39,868 bases of DNA from a virus. The position numbers were made by a program, and so were the translations under genes. Shown here piece after piece: positions 1,504 to 39,868 of the stretch. The stretch lies in the IMG/VR virus record IMGVR_UViG_3300028802_000467, positions 1 through 39,868 of that record. The stretch is one strand, 5' to 3'. Within the stretch, counting starts at the first letter, position 1, and every line of letters starts with the position of its first letter. The notes under the pieces were generated by a model. The model was not told the DNA's origin. It was given only the letters and a program-made list of their open reading frames with translations, and did no database searches.

Positions 1504-1983
1504 ATGCACTACGTTCGCGACGAGATCACCGAGGTCCTCTCCCGTGTCCCTGAGGTCAAGTGGGACCGTCTAGTCGACCTCGGGGAGAGGATCTGCGTCT
1601 ATGGCTGGCTCCCCAAGCACCCGACTGCCGAGGAGATTGTCGCAGCGCAGTCGCCGGCGGGCGGCTGGCCGCGGGACCAGCTCGCCGAGTGGAACGTGCC
1701 GTGGCCGCCACCGAAGGGCTGGCGCCAGCGTCTAGAGGCGGAGGCCGGTCGCGCCGACTTCGTCCTCATCGACTTCTGGCTCGGAAAGCAGGGGCGCCTC
1801 TGTTGGGAAGTGGTCACGAGCGCGACCGATGAGCCCCCTGACTTCTGGGACCGCCTCGAGGTCCCGGCCGACGTGCGCACCACCTGCCAGCGGGTTGAGC
1901 ACGTTTTCCCCCACGCTCCCTCGGCAATCCGCCTGGACCCGGCCGTAGAGCAACCGCTAGCCGCGCCGTCGGGGGTCGAGTGA
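1504..1983 (+). CDS. Hypothetical protein
   Basis: A 159-aa protein starting at ATG 1504, directly after the TAG of the preceding gene. I do not recognise a family. It is rich in Trp and Pro (WPRDQLAEWNVPWPPPKGW around residues 55-73) and has a hydrophobic strand-like FVLIDFWLG segment near 86-94. No metal-binding, HTH or membrane features are evident. Its 3' end overlaps the start of the cytosine methyltransferase, and its TGA (1981-1983) lies between the two alternative starts of the dual-frame locus. It belongs to the same cotranscribed cassette. Confidence 0.7.
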   Translation: MHYVRDEITEVLSRVPEVKWDRLVDLGERICVYGWLPKHPTAEEIVAAQSPAGGWPRDQLAEWNVPWPPPKGWRQRLEAEAGRADFVLIDFWLGKQGRLCWEVVTSATDEPPDFWDRLEVPADVRTTCQRVEHVFPHAPSAIRLDPAVEQPLAAPSGVE

Positions 1984-3065
1984 ATGCCCAGATCAACCTC
2001 AGCGTCGGCGGCGAGTTCGACGGAATTGGACTTCTCGCCCTCGGCCTCCACCTCGCCGGCCTCAAACACGCCTGGCTCTGCGAGGTCGACCCCTGGCGCC
2101 GTTCGATCCTCGAACAGCGCTTCCCCGGCATCCCCGTCTTCGACGATGTCCGAGCCGTCGGAGCAGCTTCTGCTCGACGAGTCGATGTCATCGCCGGCGG
2201 CTTCCCCTGCAAGGGAGTCTCTGCGGCCGGAAAGCGAGAGGGCTTCGGCCACCCCGAAACCGTTTTGTGGCGAGAGATGTTCCGAACCGTTTGCGAGCTT
2301 CGACCCCGATACGTGCTCGTGGAGAACGTCGCGGATCTCCTTAATCTCCGACCCCCTGGAGGGCACTCCGGAGACCTTGCCGGAGAGGTATATGCAGACC
2401 TGGCCTCGGTCGGTTTCGATCTTGTCGGGGATGTGCTTCCAGCAGCAGCCGTCGGTGCCCCTCACCTCCGTCAGAGGTTCCTCGCCGTTGCTGCCCACCC
2501 CGACGGCGTCGGATGGGGAGAGGGAGTCGGAGACGTTCGGGCGGGGCAACTCGACGCTGAAGGGAGCGCTGAAGCTCCTACCAACGCCGAAGGCCGAGCC
2601 GCGTGGGCCGGCGAGCAAACGGGGTCGGAACGCGCAGGGCGGTCCGGGTCTAAACGAGGCGATCAGGCTCCTCCCGACTCCGCGAGCGGACTGCCGGGAT
2701 CAGGCGCCCCGGTCTCCGCGAAAGGGCTGGCGACCGAGCCTGATGGAGGCGACGGTCAAGCTGCTTCCGACCCCCCACGGGATGCCCAAGGAGGGCCAGA
2801 ACCGCCGGCCGGGACCGAGTGGGAACGAGCTCGGATTCGCCGTGGGGTCGCTGTTGACTGGGGAGAGTTCGGACCCGCTATCGAGCGTTGGGAGCGGGTC
2901 CACGGACGCGCACCTGAGCCCCTGGTTCGTCGAGTGGATGATGGGAGCACCCGAAGGTTGGAGCGATCCCGCCTGTCCGCTCTCGGCGACGGAGTTTGCG
3001 TGCAGGTTGGGTTTCTCGTCGGCCGCTACATCGTCGAACGCGAGCGGGAGCGAGTAGCGGCGTGA
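1980..3065 (+). CDS. DNA (cytosine-5) methyltransferase, Dcm-like
   Basis: C5-MTase motifs appear in order. Motif I region FDGIG is at 13-17, CEVDP at 34-38 and FDDVR at 54-58. Motif IV is GGFPCKG with catalytic Cys77. Motif VI is VENV with E115, N116, V117. Motif VIII is RQRF at 164-167. At the C-terminus are a WGEFGPAIERWE segment and a motif X-like LSALGDGVCVQV. The protein would methylate C5 of cytosine in double-stranded DNA. No restriction enzyme is adjacent, so it is probably an orphan methylase protecting phage DNA. Residues about 170-290, where target recognition would sit, are low-complexity Gly/Ala/Asp/Glu/Pro; there the +1 frame carries the conserved pattern. The start is GTG 1980; see the overlapping gene for the alternative. 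Confidence 0.92.
   Translation: MNAQINLSVGGEFDGIGLLALGLHLAGLKHAWLCEVDPWRRSILEQRFPGIPVFDDVRAVGAASARRVDVIAGGFPCKGVSAAGKREGFGHPETVLWREMFRTVCELRPRYVLVENVADLLNLRPPGGHSGDLAGEVYADLASVGFDLVGDVLPAAAVGAPHLRQRFLAVAAHPDGVGWGEGVGDVRAGQLDAEGSAEAPTNAEGRAAWAGEQTGSERAGRSGSKRGDQAPPDSASGLPGSGAPVSAKGLATEPDGGDGQAASDPPRDAQGGPEPPAGTEWERARIRRGVAVDWGEFGPAIERWERVHGRAPEPLVRRVDDGSTRRLERSRLSALGDGVCVQVGFLVGRYIVERERERVAA
1984..3057 (+). CDS. Overlapping +1-frame gene within the cytosine methyltransferase gene (LLPTP-repeat protein)
   Basis: A 357-codon frame opens at ATG 1984, four bases after the methyltransferase GTG, and stays open to TAG 3055-3057, almost the whole length of the partner gene. It carries FASFDPDTCSW (about residue 102), TWPRS (139-143), four copies of LLPTP (169-173, 198-202, 229-233, 260-264) and FVEWMMGAPEGWSD near the C-terminus. 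I recall similar sequences, with LPTP repeats and an FVEWMMG-like ending, as widespread unnamed phage proteins. The four LLPTP copies use different synonymous codons at every position, while the methyltransferase frame varies there. This argues for selection on this protein. Biochemical role unknown. Confidence 0.65.
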   Translation: MPRSTSASAASSTELDFSPSASTSPASNTPGSARSTPGAVRSSNSASPASPSSTMSEPSEQLLLDESMSSPAASPARESLRPESERASATPKPFCGERCSEPFASFDPDTCSWRTSRISLISDPLEGTPETLPERYMQTWPRSVSILSGMCFQQQPSVPLTSVRGSSPLLPTPTASDGERESETFGRGNSTLKGALKLLPTPKAEPRGPASKRGRNAQGGPGLNEAIRLLPTPRADCRDQAPRSPRKGWRPSLMEATVKLLPTPHGMPKEGQNRRPGPSGNELGFAVGSLLTGESSDPLSSVGSGSTDAHLSPWFVEWMMGAPEGWSDPACPLSATEFACRLGFSSAATSSNASGSE

Positions 3066-36507: not shown

Positions 36508-36758
36508 CCGTGGTCGACGACAAAGGTCTCCGCTTCGCCCGCGAGCTCCGCAAGGCGATCAAGGCCCGCGAAGAGGATGCCGACCTCCTGGCGGCGCTCG
36601 ACGTCTACGACCGGGCGGTGACCCCGGCTGAGCGAATGGCGGCTGCCGAGTACGTCGTGCGCCACGGGATCGAAGCCGACAACCGCTACCTCGAAGCGAG
36701 GGGCAAGGCCTTCGTCCGCATGGCTCGGCCCGACCTCCTGCCGGAGTCCGAGCAATGA
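36504..36758 (+). CDS. Small helical hypothetical protein
   Basis: An 84-aa protein starting at ATG 36504 (ATGA). It is nearly all helical and charged: FARELRKAIKAREEDADLLA, then VTPAERMAAAEYVVRHGIEA. It directly precedes the replication initiator and may be its partner. Not recognised. Confidence 0.65.
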   Translation: MTVVDDKGLRFARELRKAIKAREEDADLLAALDVYDRAVTPAERMAAAEYVVRHGIEADNRYLEARGKAFVRMARPDLLPESEQ

Positions 36759-37816
36759 GCGTCCGCGCTACCACCTGGGCCTGGGAGTTCGGCCACGCCG
36801 GGCTGGTGAAGGGCGGTCAGCTCCTCACTCTCGTTCGGGTCGCCGACCACGCCGACAACAACGGCGTCTGCTGGCCGGGCACGGAAAGCATCGCCGACTA
36901 CACCGGCAACGAGGAGAAGACGGTTCGGCGGCATCTGAAAGACCTCGAAGACCGCAGCATCCTCCACCGAGAGCGCGAAGCAGCAGAGAAAGGTCGCGGT
37001 CGCGGCAAAGACAGAATTTGCCTCCATCTCGATCAACCGGACATTTTGTCCGGTAATAACTCTGGGCTTCAACCGGACATTCCGGGGGCTTCAACCGGAC
37101 ATTCCGGGCCCGTTCAACCGGACATTTCAGACCCCGGTCTATATAGGGAACCGTCAAAGGAACCCAAGGAACCAAATATATGTCCTGACGATCAGGTCCA
37201 GGAGCTCTTCGAGTTCTGGAAGGAGATGACCGGTCGCAACGGCTCGACGATCCTGACCTCGAAACGCCGGCGGCTCCTCAAAGCTCGGCTCGACGATCCC
37301 GGACGGACCCTCGAGGAAATCAAGCTCGCGGTCGCCAACGTCGCCGCCTCCGACTGGCACATGAAGCGCGGCAAGCACAAGAGCCGCGACGGCCAGGTCC
37401 AGAGCGACCTCACCTTGATCTGCCGGGATCCCGAACACCTCGAGGGCTACCGCGACATGGGCTCGAAGGACAGCGTCGCTGTCGCGCTGCGAGCGTCGCT
37501 GGATCGGGTGGAAACGGAACCCATCGAACCCTCCGAGCGAGCCGCGGAGGCTTGGGCGGCGACGTCGAAGCGCATTGCTGCCTCGGTTCCGGGCACGACC
37601 TACCGAATCTGGATCGAGCCGTTCGGAGTCCTGGGGGAGCGCCGCGGACGCCTGGTCCTGGCAGACCTGTCCGGCGACGACAACCCGCGCGCTGAGTGGT
37701 TCCGCCGTCGGTACACGACCCTGGTTGCGGAAGCCCTCGCTGGGGAGGGAAGCGTGTTCACCGACATCGAGGTTCTCGACGAGCCACCTCCGGGGCTGGA
37801 GCGCGAGGAAGGGTGA
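36755..37816 (+). CDS. Replication initiator: winged-helix domain, O-like domain and DnaA-N-like C-terminus
   Basis: A 353-aa protein starting at ATG 36755. Residues about 15-90 form a HTH_36-type winged helix: LLTLVRVADHADNNGVCWPG, then ESIADYTGNEEKTVRRHLKD. A flexible segment with repeated QPDI follows (the iterons). About 145-235 resembles the C-terminal part of phage replisome organisers: ELFEFWKEMTGRNGSTILT and a later DWHMKRGKHKSRDGQVQSDL ending with ICRDPEHLEGY. About 252-330 looks like the DnaA N-terminal protein-interaction domain: AWAATSKRIAASVPGTTYRI, WIEPFGVL and WFRRRYTTLVAEAL. It would bind the origin inside its own gene and recruit host helicase machinery. Confidence 0.82.
   Translation: MSVRATTWAWEFGHAGLVKGGQLLTLVRVADHADNNGVCWPGTESIADYTGNEEKTVRRHLKDLEDRSILHREREAAEKGRGRGKDRICLHLDQPDILSGNNSGLQPDIPGASTGHSGPVQPDISDPGLYREPSKEPKEPNICPDDQVQELFEFWKEMTGRNGSTILTSKRRRLLKARLDDPGRTLEEIKLAVANVAASDWHMKRGKHKSRDGQVQSDLTLICRDPEHLEGYRDMGSKDSVAVALRASLDRVETEPIEPSERAAEAWAATSKRIAASVPGTTYRIWIEPFGVLGERRGRLVLADLSGDDNPRAEWFRRRYTTLVAEALAGEGSVFTDIEVLDEPPPGLEREEG
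37033..37186. other. Candidate replication origin: four iterons plus AT-rich stretch
   Basis: TCAACCGGACATT occurs four times, at 37033, 37069, 37091 and 37114; copies 2 and 3 are part of a longer tandem repeat. Copy 1 is also an inverted repeat, CCGGACA-TTT-TGTCCGG (37037-37053). Copy 3 is read in a different protein frame from copies 1, 2 and 4, so the conservation is at DNA level. An AT-rich stretch with TATATAGGG (about 37140-37147) and CAAATATATG (37173-37182) follows. The layout is that of lambda ori inside gene O. Confidence 0.82.
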
Positions 37817-38019
37817 CCGTGGCCGAGCTCACCGTCCCGACCAAGGGCCCGTCGATCACCGCCAAGCGGGACGGGAACTGTCCGATGTGCCGGCAGCCGA
37901 TCCACGCGAACGTCGACTTCATCTGCGAGGTCCCTCGCCTCAAGGCCTACCTCCACACCCACTGCGCCGACGGCTACATCCGCACCCTGGCCGAACACCT
38001 CGAGGAGGACGCCGCGTGA
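37813..38019 (+). CDS. Small zinc-binding hypothetical protein
   Basis: A 68-aa protein. GTG 37813 overlaps the initiator stop (GTGA); GTG 37819 is also possible. It has a CPMCRQPIHANVDFICEVPR segment and a later YLHTHCADGYI, giving a C-x2-C ... H-x-H-C-like zinc site. Similar short Cys/His proteins occur in actinophage early regions. Function unknown. Confidence 0.68.
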   Translation: MTVAELTVPTKGPSITAKRDGNCPMCRQPIHANVDFICEVPRLKAYLHTHCADGYIRTLAEHLEEDAA

Positions 38020-38210
38020 GCAAGACCTTCCTCAGGAATAGCTTCATCGACGTCGCTGGCGCCACGGCGAATCGGCGGATGCTGAAGGAGATGCGGATCC
38101 GCGAGGCGACCGAGCTCTCGCCGTCCGCGGTGCGCAAGCGGAAGTTGCGGGCCGAGCAGAAGAAGGCGGCACTGCGGCAGATGCTCGAAGCGGGGGAGGG
38201 GCGCTCGTGA
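38016..38210 (+). CDS. Small basic hypothetical protein
   Basis: A 64-aa protein starting at GTG 38016 (GTGA overlap). Strongly basic and helical: ATANRRMLKEMRIREATELS, then VRKRKLRAEQKKAALRQMLE. It may bind DNA or RNA. No family recognised. Its stop overlaps the next start. Confidence 0.65.
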   Translation: MSKTFLRNSFIDVAGATANRRMLKEMRIREATELSPSAVRKRKLRAEQKKAALRQMLEAGEGRS

Positions 38211-38777: not shown

Positions 38778-39868
38778 GCGTCTTCGAAAGCCCCAAGGGC
38801 AGCGGCAAGTGGGTCTCCAAGTTCCAGTACAAAGGCGTCCTCCGCTGGGTCCCCGGCTCCCCCTTCACGAGTAAGGAGGCAGGCGAATCCGCGGAAGAAA
38901 TCCACCGCGGCCGCCTGAAGCGCCAGCGCACCGACGAAACGTGCGCCAGCTTCGCCGACCGCTGGCTCGAGGAGTGGCCGCGAAAGGCACCGTCGACCCG
39001 GGTCCTCTATGGGGAAGCGGCGAGGCGCTTCAAAGACGACTTTGGCGACATGCCCCTCGGCGAGCCGGACGTGCTGATGGCGCGGACCTGGGCGCTCGGC
39101 GTGCCACGCAACATCTCCAAGATCGTCGGAACGATGTACGAGGACGCCCGTCAGGTGGGCCTCGTCCCCGCCGACTTCAATCCCTTCCACGGGTTGAAGC
39201 TGCCGGCAACCGAGAAGACGGCCGAAGTCGCGCCGCCGACCGACGAGGAGCTACAGAAGCTAATGGCGGCGACGATGACTTTCGGTGCCGAGTACGCCCG
39301 CGAGTTCCGCGAGCTGATCAACTTCCTGGCGGTCGAGGGGCTGCGGTCGGGCGAGCTGCAGGCGCTGCGCCACGACTACCTCGACGACGACCTGGTCCAC
39401 GTCCTTCGGCAGCGCCGCGATGATGGCACCTACGCGCTGCCCAAGGGAGGCAAGGACCGAGACATCCCCTTCCTGAAACCGGCCCGCAGCGTGCTCGAGG
39501 TCGACCGTCGCAAGGGGTCGCCCTTCGTCTTCCACACGCCGCGAGGGGAGTGCCTGAAGAAGGGCAACCTCTACTACCTGTGGCTGAAGGTCAGGGACCT
39601 CTCGGGCACCTCGCCCGACCGCGTCGCCGCGGGGCTGCGGCCGATCAGGGTCCACGACCTCCGCCACTACTCGGCGACCAGGCTGCTCGAACTCGGCGCC
39701 AGCCACTTCGACGTCTCCGTGCACCTCGGTCACGAAGACGGGGGCGCCCTGGTGATGTCCCGCTACGGCCACCCGTCCAAGGACGCTGCTCGATCCCGAC
39801 TACTATTTCTGGATCAGGGAACCGACGCGCAGACTGGTCGTCCAGCTACCAGTGCGGGGGTCGGCTAG
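38774..39868 (+). CDS. int: Tyrosine-family site-specific integrase
   Basis: A 364-aa protein starting at GTG 38774 (GTGA overlap). The N-terminal arm-binding domain begins GKWVSKFQYKGVLRWVPGSP, followed by a core-binding SAM-like domain (about 55-125). Catalytic residues of the tyrosine recombinase are visible: Arg191 in GLRSGELQAL, a Lys in KGGKDRDIPF, His294 and Arg297 in HDLRHYSATR, His320 in HLGHED, and nucleophile Tyr331 in MSRYGH. It catalyses integration and excision between attP and attB. Its stop codon is the last base of the window, so the attachment site expected just downstream is not visible. Confidence 0.96.
   Translation: MSVFESPKGSGKWVSKFQYKGVLRWVPGSPFTSKEAGESAEEIHRGRLKRQRTDETCASFADRWLEEWPRKAPSTRVLYGEAARRFKDDFGDMPLGEPDVLMARTWALGVPRNISKIVGTMYEDARQVGLVPADFNPFHGLKLPATEKTAEVAPPTDEELQKLMAATMTFGAEYAREFRELINFLAVEGLRSGELQALRHDYLDDDLVHVLRQRRDDGTYALPKGGKDRDIPFLKPARSVLEVDRRKGSPFVFHTPRGECLKKGNLYYLWLKVRDLSGTSPDRVAAGLRPIRVHDLRHYSATRLLELGASHFDVSVHLGHEDGGALVMSRYGHPSKDAARSRLLFLDQGTDAQTGRPATSAGVG

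Follow-up and report, generated by a model that had tools for sequence, protein, structure and literature searches.

In-gene iterons suggest a replication origin within the HTH_36-type initiator gene of a tailed phage

We analysed a stretch of viral DNA of 39,868 nucleotides (the window; positions 1 to 39,868 of IMG/VR record IMGVR_UViG_3300028802_000467). The segment at about 37030-37200 is best explained as a phage replication origin contained in the gene for its own initiator, a reading to which we assign a probability of roughly 0.87. The features of the DNA on which this reading draws are a set of repeats, their conservation at the DNA level, their position in the gene, an AT-rich neighbour and, in pooled data, co-variation between the repeats and a helix of the initiator.

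The putative replication initiator gene (36755..37816, + strand, as are all features below unless stated otherwise) encodes a protein of 353 aa. It matched HTH_36 (37.3 bits against a curated cut-off of 25) as well as the replication initiation families phrog_270 ('replication initiation protein', 7.1e-18) and phrog_1032 (2.4e-17), and by profile it is an HTH_36-type phage replication initiator. The protein is arranged as a winged HTH (wHTH) domain, a disordered linker, a helical domain and a C terminus resembling DnaA domain I. The AF2 model had low overall confidence, its best part being the HTH_36 wHTH core (residues 22-70, 36818..36964; Pfam PF13730, E 2.4e-9). Within this core lies the predicted recognition helix (AF2 helix H54-66, residues 54-66, including K55 T56 V57 R58 R59; 36914..36952), where the co-variation with the iterons described below peaks. 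Structure comparison of the wHTH model returned, among others, the RepA_N-type initiators 4pql, 5kbj and 4pt7 (probability 1.00, E only about 0.02-0.05). An earlier note on this DNA had proposed that the linker encoded by the repeats could be unstructured, and the corresponding segment (residues 94-143, 37034..37183) was indeed predicted to be disordered, with pLDDT below 50 in the AF2 model. The middle domain (residues 145-233, 37187..37453), modelled as helices with moderate to low confidence, matched phrog_18020 and phrog_16167. For the C-terminal domain (residues 256-343, 37520..37783), the Pfam DnaA_N profile gave 17.3 bits (E 0.004) in the window protein, below the cut-off of 24.6, and 27.5 bits (E 2.5e-6), above the cut-off, in L015, the only close relative found, which is the initiator of IMGVR_UViG_3300012915_000031 and is 41% identical. 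Foldseek analysis of the low-confidence model of this domain returned weak, unrelated matches, with no DnaA among the matches listed.

Four exact copies of TCAACCGGACATT were located inside this ORF, at 37033-37045, 37069-37081, 37091-37103 and 37114-37126 (copies 1 to 4), with the start-to-start spacing of 36, 22 and 23 that had been claimed for them. Translation agreed with the frames given earlier, copies 1, 2 and 4 being read as QPDI and copy 3, in another frame, as TGH. An exact inverted half-site, TGTCCGGT (37047-37054, - strand), was absent from the earlier note and was found in the follow-up; it lies 11 bp after copy 1, and together they form the dyad ACCGGACATTTTGTCCGGT (37036-37054). 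Thus, the array runs from a head-to-head pair through three direct copies into AT-rich DNA. No further TCAACCGGACATT site was present elsewhere in the window at up to 2 mismatches. A chance origin of the repeats was dismissed, since an exact 9-mer recurring four times within 120 nt was obtained in 1/2000 codon shuffles of the initiator gene and TRF placed 37064-37126 among only four tandem arrays of the window. An in-frame EPSKEPKEP repeat, made of GGAACC-like units every 9-12 nt, is also present at 37149-37175, between the iterons and the middle domain.

The AT-rich stretch reported to follow the repeats was found at 37138-37197. It is 56.7% AT, as compared to an average of 36% for the initiator gene, and is the second AT-richest 60-mer of the 39.9-kb window; being AT-rich and lying where AT content peaks across the family, it is a candidate DNA unwinding element. 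The minimum of the cumulative GC skew fell in the bin holding the iterons, on a curve too shallow to decide.

We surveyed HTH_36 initiators in viral contigs and in genomes spanning four phyla. They were retrieved with an N-terminal-domain profile (alignment A4) and hence independently of motif; loci picked by motif were excluded from the survey counts and from the correlation tests quoted below. Linkers of at least 300 nt were counted, and significance was taken as p<=0.05 against 40 dinucleotide shuffles each. Significant DNA repeats were present in 72/98 linkers, as against 5/111 regions before the linker, 3/49 further on in the gene and 6/109 downstream of the gene (4-6%). In the first sample, 58/78 genes carried significant repeats, and 50 of these 58 arrays had copies in more than one reading frame. 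Of about 190 short spacings, 102 fell at 21-24 bp and minor groups at 11 and 33; 22 and 23, the values seen most often in the family, are not divisible by three. AT content was 15 points higher at 20-40 nt 3' of the last repeat and near the gene average upstream, the excess in the 80-nt stretch downstream of the last repeat being highly significant (p=5e-12, n=81). The repeat sequence varied from clade to clade. A universal CCGGACA iteron was considered and dropped, as each clade had its own repeat in the motif-independent sample. The frequency of repeats in linkers and the AT peak downstream of them therefore mark in-gene iterons with an AT-rich flank as the usual state of the family, and, in a comparison covering about 150 related genes, a self-contained origin-in-initiator layout appears to be usual for HTH_36 initiators.

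The wHTH domains of initiators often act as repressors too, and arrays of sites can block RNA polymerase. The repeats could accordingly be autoregulatory operators, through which the initiator would repress transcription of its own gene or act as a roadblock to it, with the origin elsewhere. We consider this improbable, though it fares better than the two other alternatives below. The sites are found about 280 nt into the gene rather than at a promoter, and the systematic AT-rich peak directly 3' of the arrays fits an unwinding element. Moreover, in-gene arrays of the same layout that were studied experimentally are origins (PMC7466680, PMC5703833).

Binding of the iterons by the wHTH would lead one to expect that the recognition helix and the iterons vary together. 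Among all windows of the domain, iteron similarity best tracked the helix window EKTVRRHL (n=59, rho 0.153, permutation p=0.0005), and this correlation persisted after correction for the rest of the domain. A second small sample taken alone (n=22) gave no helix-iteron correlation (rho 0.045, p=0.30). On pooling (n=81) the correlation remained (p=0.0005), with the residue equivalent to R58 as the best single column, and with all sets (n=102) rho was 0.220 (p=0.0005, partial 0.194). The third sample showed a strong helix-iteron correlation with a rest-of-domain rho of 0.67; since this set is mostly one clade, shared ancestry contributes to its signal. In that clade, Q, R and H at the R58 position pair with ACCCCCGCA, ACCCCGGCA and ACCACCGCA, respectively. 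By a post hoc rule, covering all non-selected genes, basic-x-[VIL]-R helices were paired with CCGG iterons in 9/16 and other helices in 5/86 (p=7e-6). Among clusters selected by DNA motif, leaving out the window and L015, xVRR occurred in 4/5 as compared to 14/113 in the background (p=0.002). A simpler rule, equating VRR with CCGG, did not hold for the second sample (L314, L338, L339, L392); in L338 an RTVRRHL helix is paired with a different, weak repeat. These comparisons are good but not final evidence that the reading helix and the iterons change together, most sharply near R58, because the control for shared ancestry is partial.

Linked features are inherited together and the binding partner of the array is putative, so that the array could bind another factor, be it for packaging or partition, a host protein or a repressor, and co-vary with the initiator by linkage only. 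This is less probable still than the operator reading: the co-variation is concentrated on the reading helix of the initiator and survives the rest-of-domain correction, and in most members of the family, from several phyla, the array immediately follows the part that codes for the wHTH.

The claim that the repeat is kept as DNA rather than as protein was upheld in relatives. L015 has four iterons with identical cores and the 36/22/23 spacing kept, and its codons are the same as those of the window in 13/13 shared iteron residues as compared to 71/125 elsewhere (p=0.0017). A pattern scan yielded 55 viral contigs with three spaced copies of AACCGGACA, and in the unrelated initiators found by the scan all three reading frames of this core are used, giving QPD, NRT or TGH/TGQ. 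Because identical codons occur in a relative of only 41% identity and the core occurs in all three frames, we take the repeats to be kept as DNA. Many pattern-scan matches in genome contigs were tandem satellites or in-frame protein repeats and were not counted; a single-protein search of the viral contigs with P0001 gave no matches. The inverted half-site at +11 is also kept, being exact in L044 and L002 and having 1 mismatch in L007, L020 and L131, of which the first four belong to a family from Neorhizobium and related viral contigs and the last is from Kocuria. A conserved protein without the DNA repeats, the case named earlier as one that would speak against an origin, was not seen in L015, the sole close relative; about a quarter of the distant homologues had no detectable repeats. 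Both L015 and the L044 family also have EP repeats resembling EPSKEPKEP 3' of their iterons. Copies 1, 2 and 4 share a frame and EPSKEPKEP just 3' is an in-frame, protein-like repeat, yet a repetitive flexible QPD linker whose DNA similarity stems from recent duplication is the least probable of the alternatives, and as sole explanation is refuted by the mixed frames, given that copy 3 and the inverted site lie in other frames, that relatives use all three, that the codons are frozen and that spacings of 22 and 23 are not multiples of three.

For the preferred reading, an origin inside the initiator gene, we infer binding, melting, helicase recruitment and use as an origin along the following lines. 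The N-terminal winged helix, through its reading helix K55-T-V-R58-R59, very probably binds the AACCGGACA sites, that is, the head-to-head pair 11 bp apart and the three direct copies spaced by two helical turns. The nucleoprotein complex so formed would strain the duplex, and the adjoining AT-rich stretch would open. The C-terminal part, comprising the helical and DnaA-domain-I-like domains, would then recruit the replicative helicase of the host. Domain I of DnaA is known to contact this helicase, and it is the likeness of the C terminus to this domain that suggests a helicase-recruiting role. As the iterons encode only a disordered linker, their DNA would be free to follow the specificity of the helix, whose coding sequence lies about 100-200 bp upstream.

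An initiator from an Actinomycetota sample (L202:1501-2559) has a different helix and a different iteron, CGCAGAATC, together with a C-terminal half that resembles that of the window protein, which suggests that helix and iterons are exchanged as a unit. It is about an even chance, in our estimate, that the HTH_36 initiators found in phages and related elements make up a self-reading module, in which helix and iterons sit a few hundred bases or less apart in one gene, co-diverge and can be swapped as a unit with different helicase-recruiting C termini. If so, the family would record a natural, decodable code of protein-DNA recognition, with basic-x-[VIL]-R read with CCGG and Q at the R58 position with CCCCG/GGGTG as examples, and the AACCGGACA iteron would be common to initiators in several phyla because the helix is common. 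An origin that can be read off the initiator gene would make origins testable across a very large set of temperate phages and plasmids, most of which are unstudied. Should the co-variation hold, thousands of sequenced initiators would become a training set for DNA recognition by winged helices, and it would allow incompatibility, or the ability to share an origin, to be predicted among phages and plasmids.

The phage context was checked as well. A contractile tail, as had been stated, was borne out by a tail sheath match (phrog_23, 2.9e-31). The actinobacterial origin is likely, the terminase matches being mostly in actinophages, and is not proven. Elsewhere in the window, two full-length + strand ORFs in different frames (1980-3065 and 1984-3057) make about 1.07 kb apparently dual-coding. 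One encodes a C5 cytosine methyltransferase (PF00145, 3e-30). The other, a nested ORF of 357 aa containing LLPTP repeats, matched phrog_1008 'DNA methyltransferase' (8e-27), and its tblastn matches fell in 31 phage records, most of them from actinophages, of which several carry two annotated methylase genes in the matched segment. At 936-1151, 72 copies of a CCG triplet unit encode an Ala/Val-rich low-complexity stretch in ORF 383-1306. The last 12 bases of a tRNA-Arg gene (86-97 / 39086-39097) recur once, inside the integrase gene, where 0.02 chance matches were expected; this match is possibly att-related, or chance.

The earlier note had likened the segment to the architecture of lambda ori, in which four iterons and an AT-rich tract lie in the middle of gene O (PMC7466680). 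As a working analogy this stands, the window likewise having its four iterons and AT-rich stretch midway along an initiator gene, but membership does not: the window protein had no Phage_rep_O Pfam match up to E=1 and carried only 'O-like' PHROG labels. The window iterons also differ from those of lambda ori in being 13-bp, non-palindromic and spaced at 22/23, with an extra inverted half-site. Directly downstream of the initiator no P-type loader gene was recognisable; the next ORF (37820-38020, 66 aa) had no Pfam match.

The rep gene of plasmid pSK41 has four Rep boxes at its centre, which encode a linker and are bound by the N-terminal winged HTH of a RepA_N initiator, whose C-terminal domain contacts the replication machinery (PMC5703833). 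The window protein shares the wHTH N terminus and the placement of boxes in the linker-coding part, and RepA_N-type structures matched its model; it differs in having no RepA_N Pfam match up to E=1, in box sequence and C-terminal domain, and in belonging to a phage and not to a plasmid. The closest precedent is the chimeric HTH_36-type Rep of staphylococcal plasmid pPR9, whose N-terminal domain (pfam13730) is related to a phage replication protein and whose mini-replicon works autonomously (PMC5703833). There, as in the window protein, an HTH_36 DNA-binding domain is joined to a separate C-terminal domain, which in pPR9 is of pSK41 type and not DnaA-domain-I-like. The initiator L015 has the same wHTH helix, four iterons at the same spacing and a DnaA_N-like C terminus, whereas its middle domain is divergent and its inverted half-site degenerate (CGACCGGT). 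In the open literature, with most subscription journals outside it, we found no paper on family-wide in-gene iterons or on a helix-iteron code. In-gene iteron origins are already known, and what the present analysis adds is the generality of the arrangement across HTH_36 initiators together with an emerging recognition code. By comparison with these systems, the best reading of the window is an in-gene iteron origin that probably works like lambda ori/O and the pSK41 RepA_N ori and is a member of neither.
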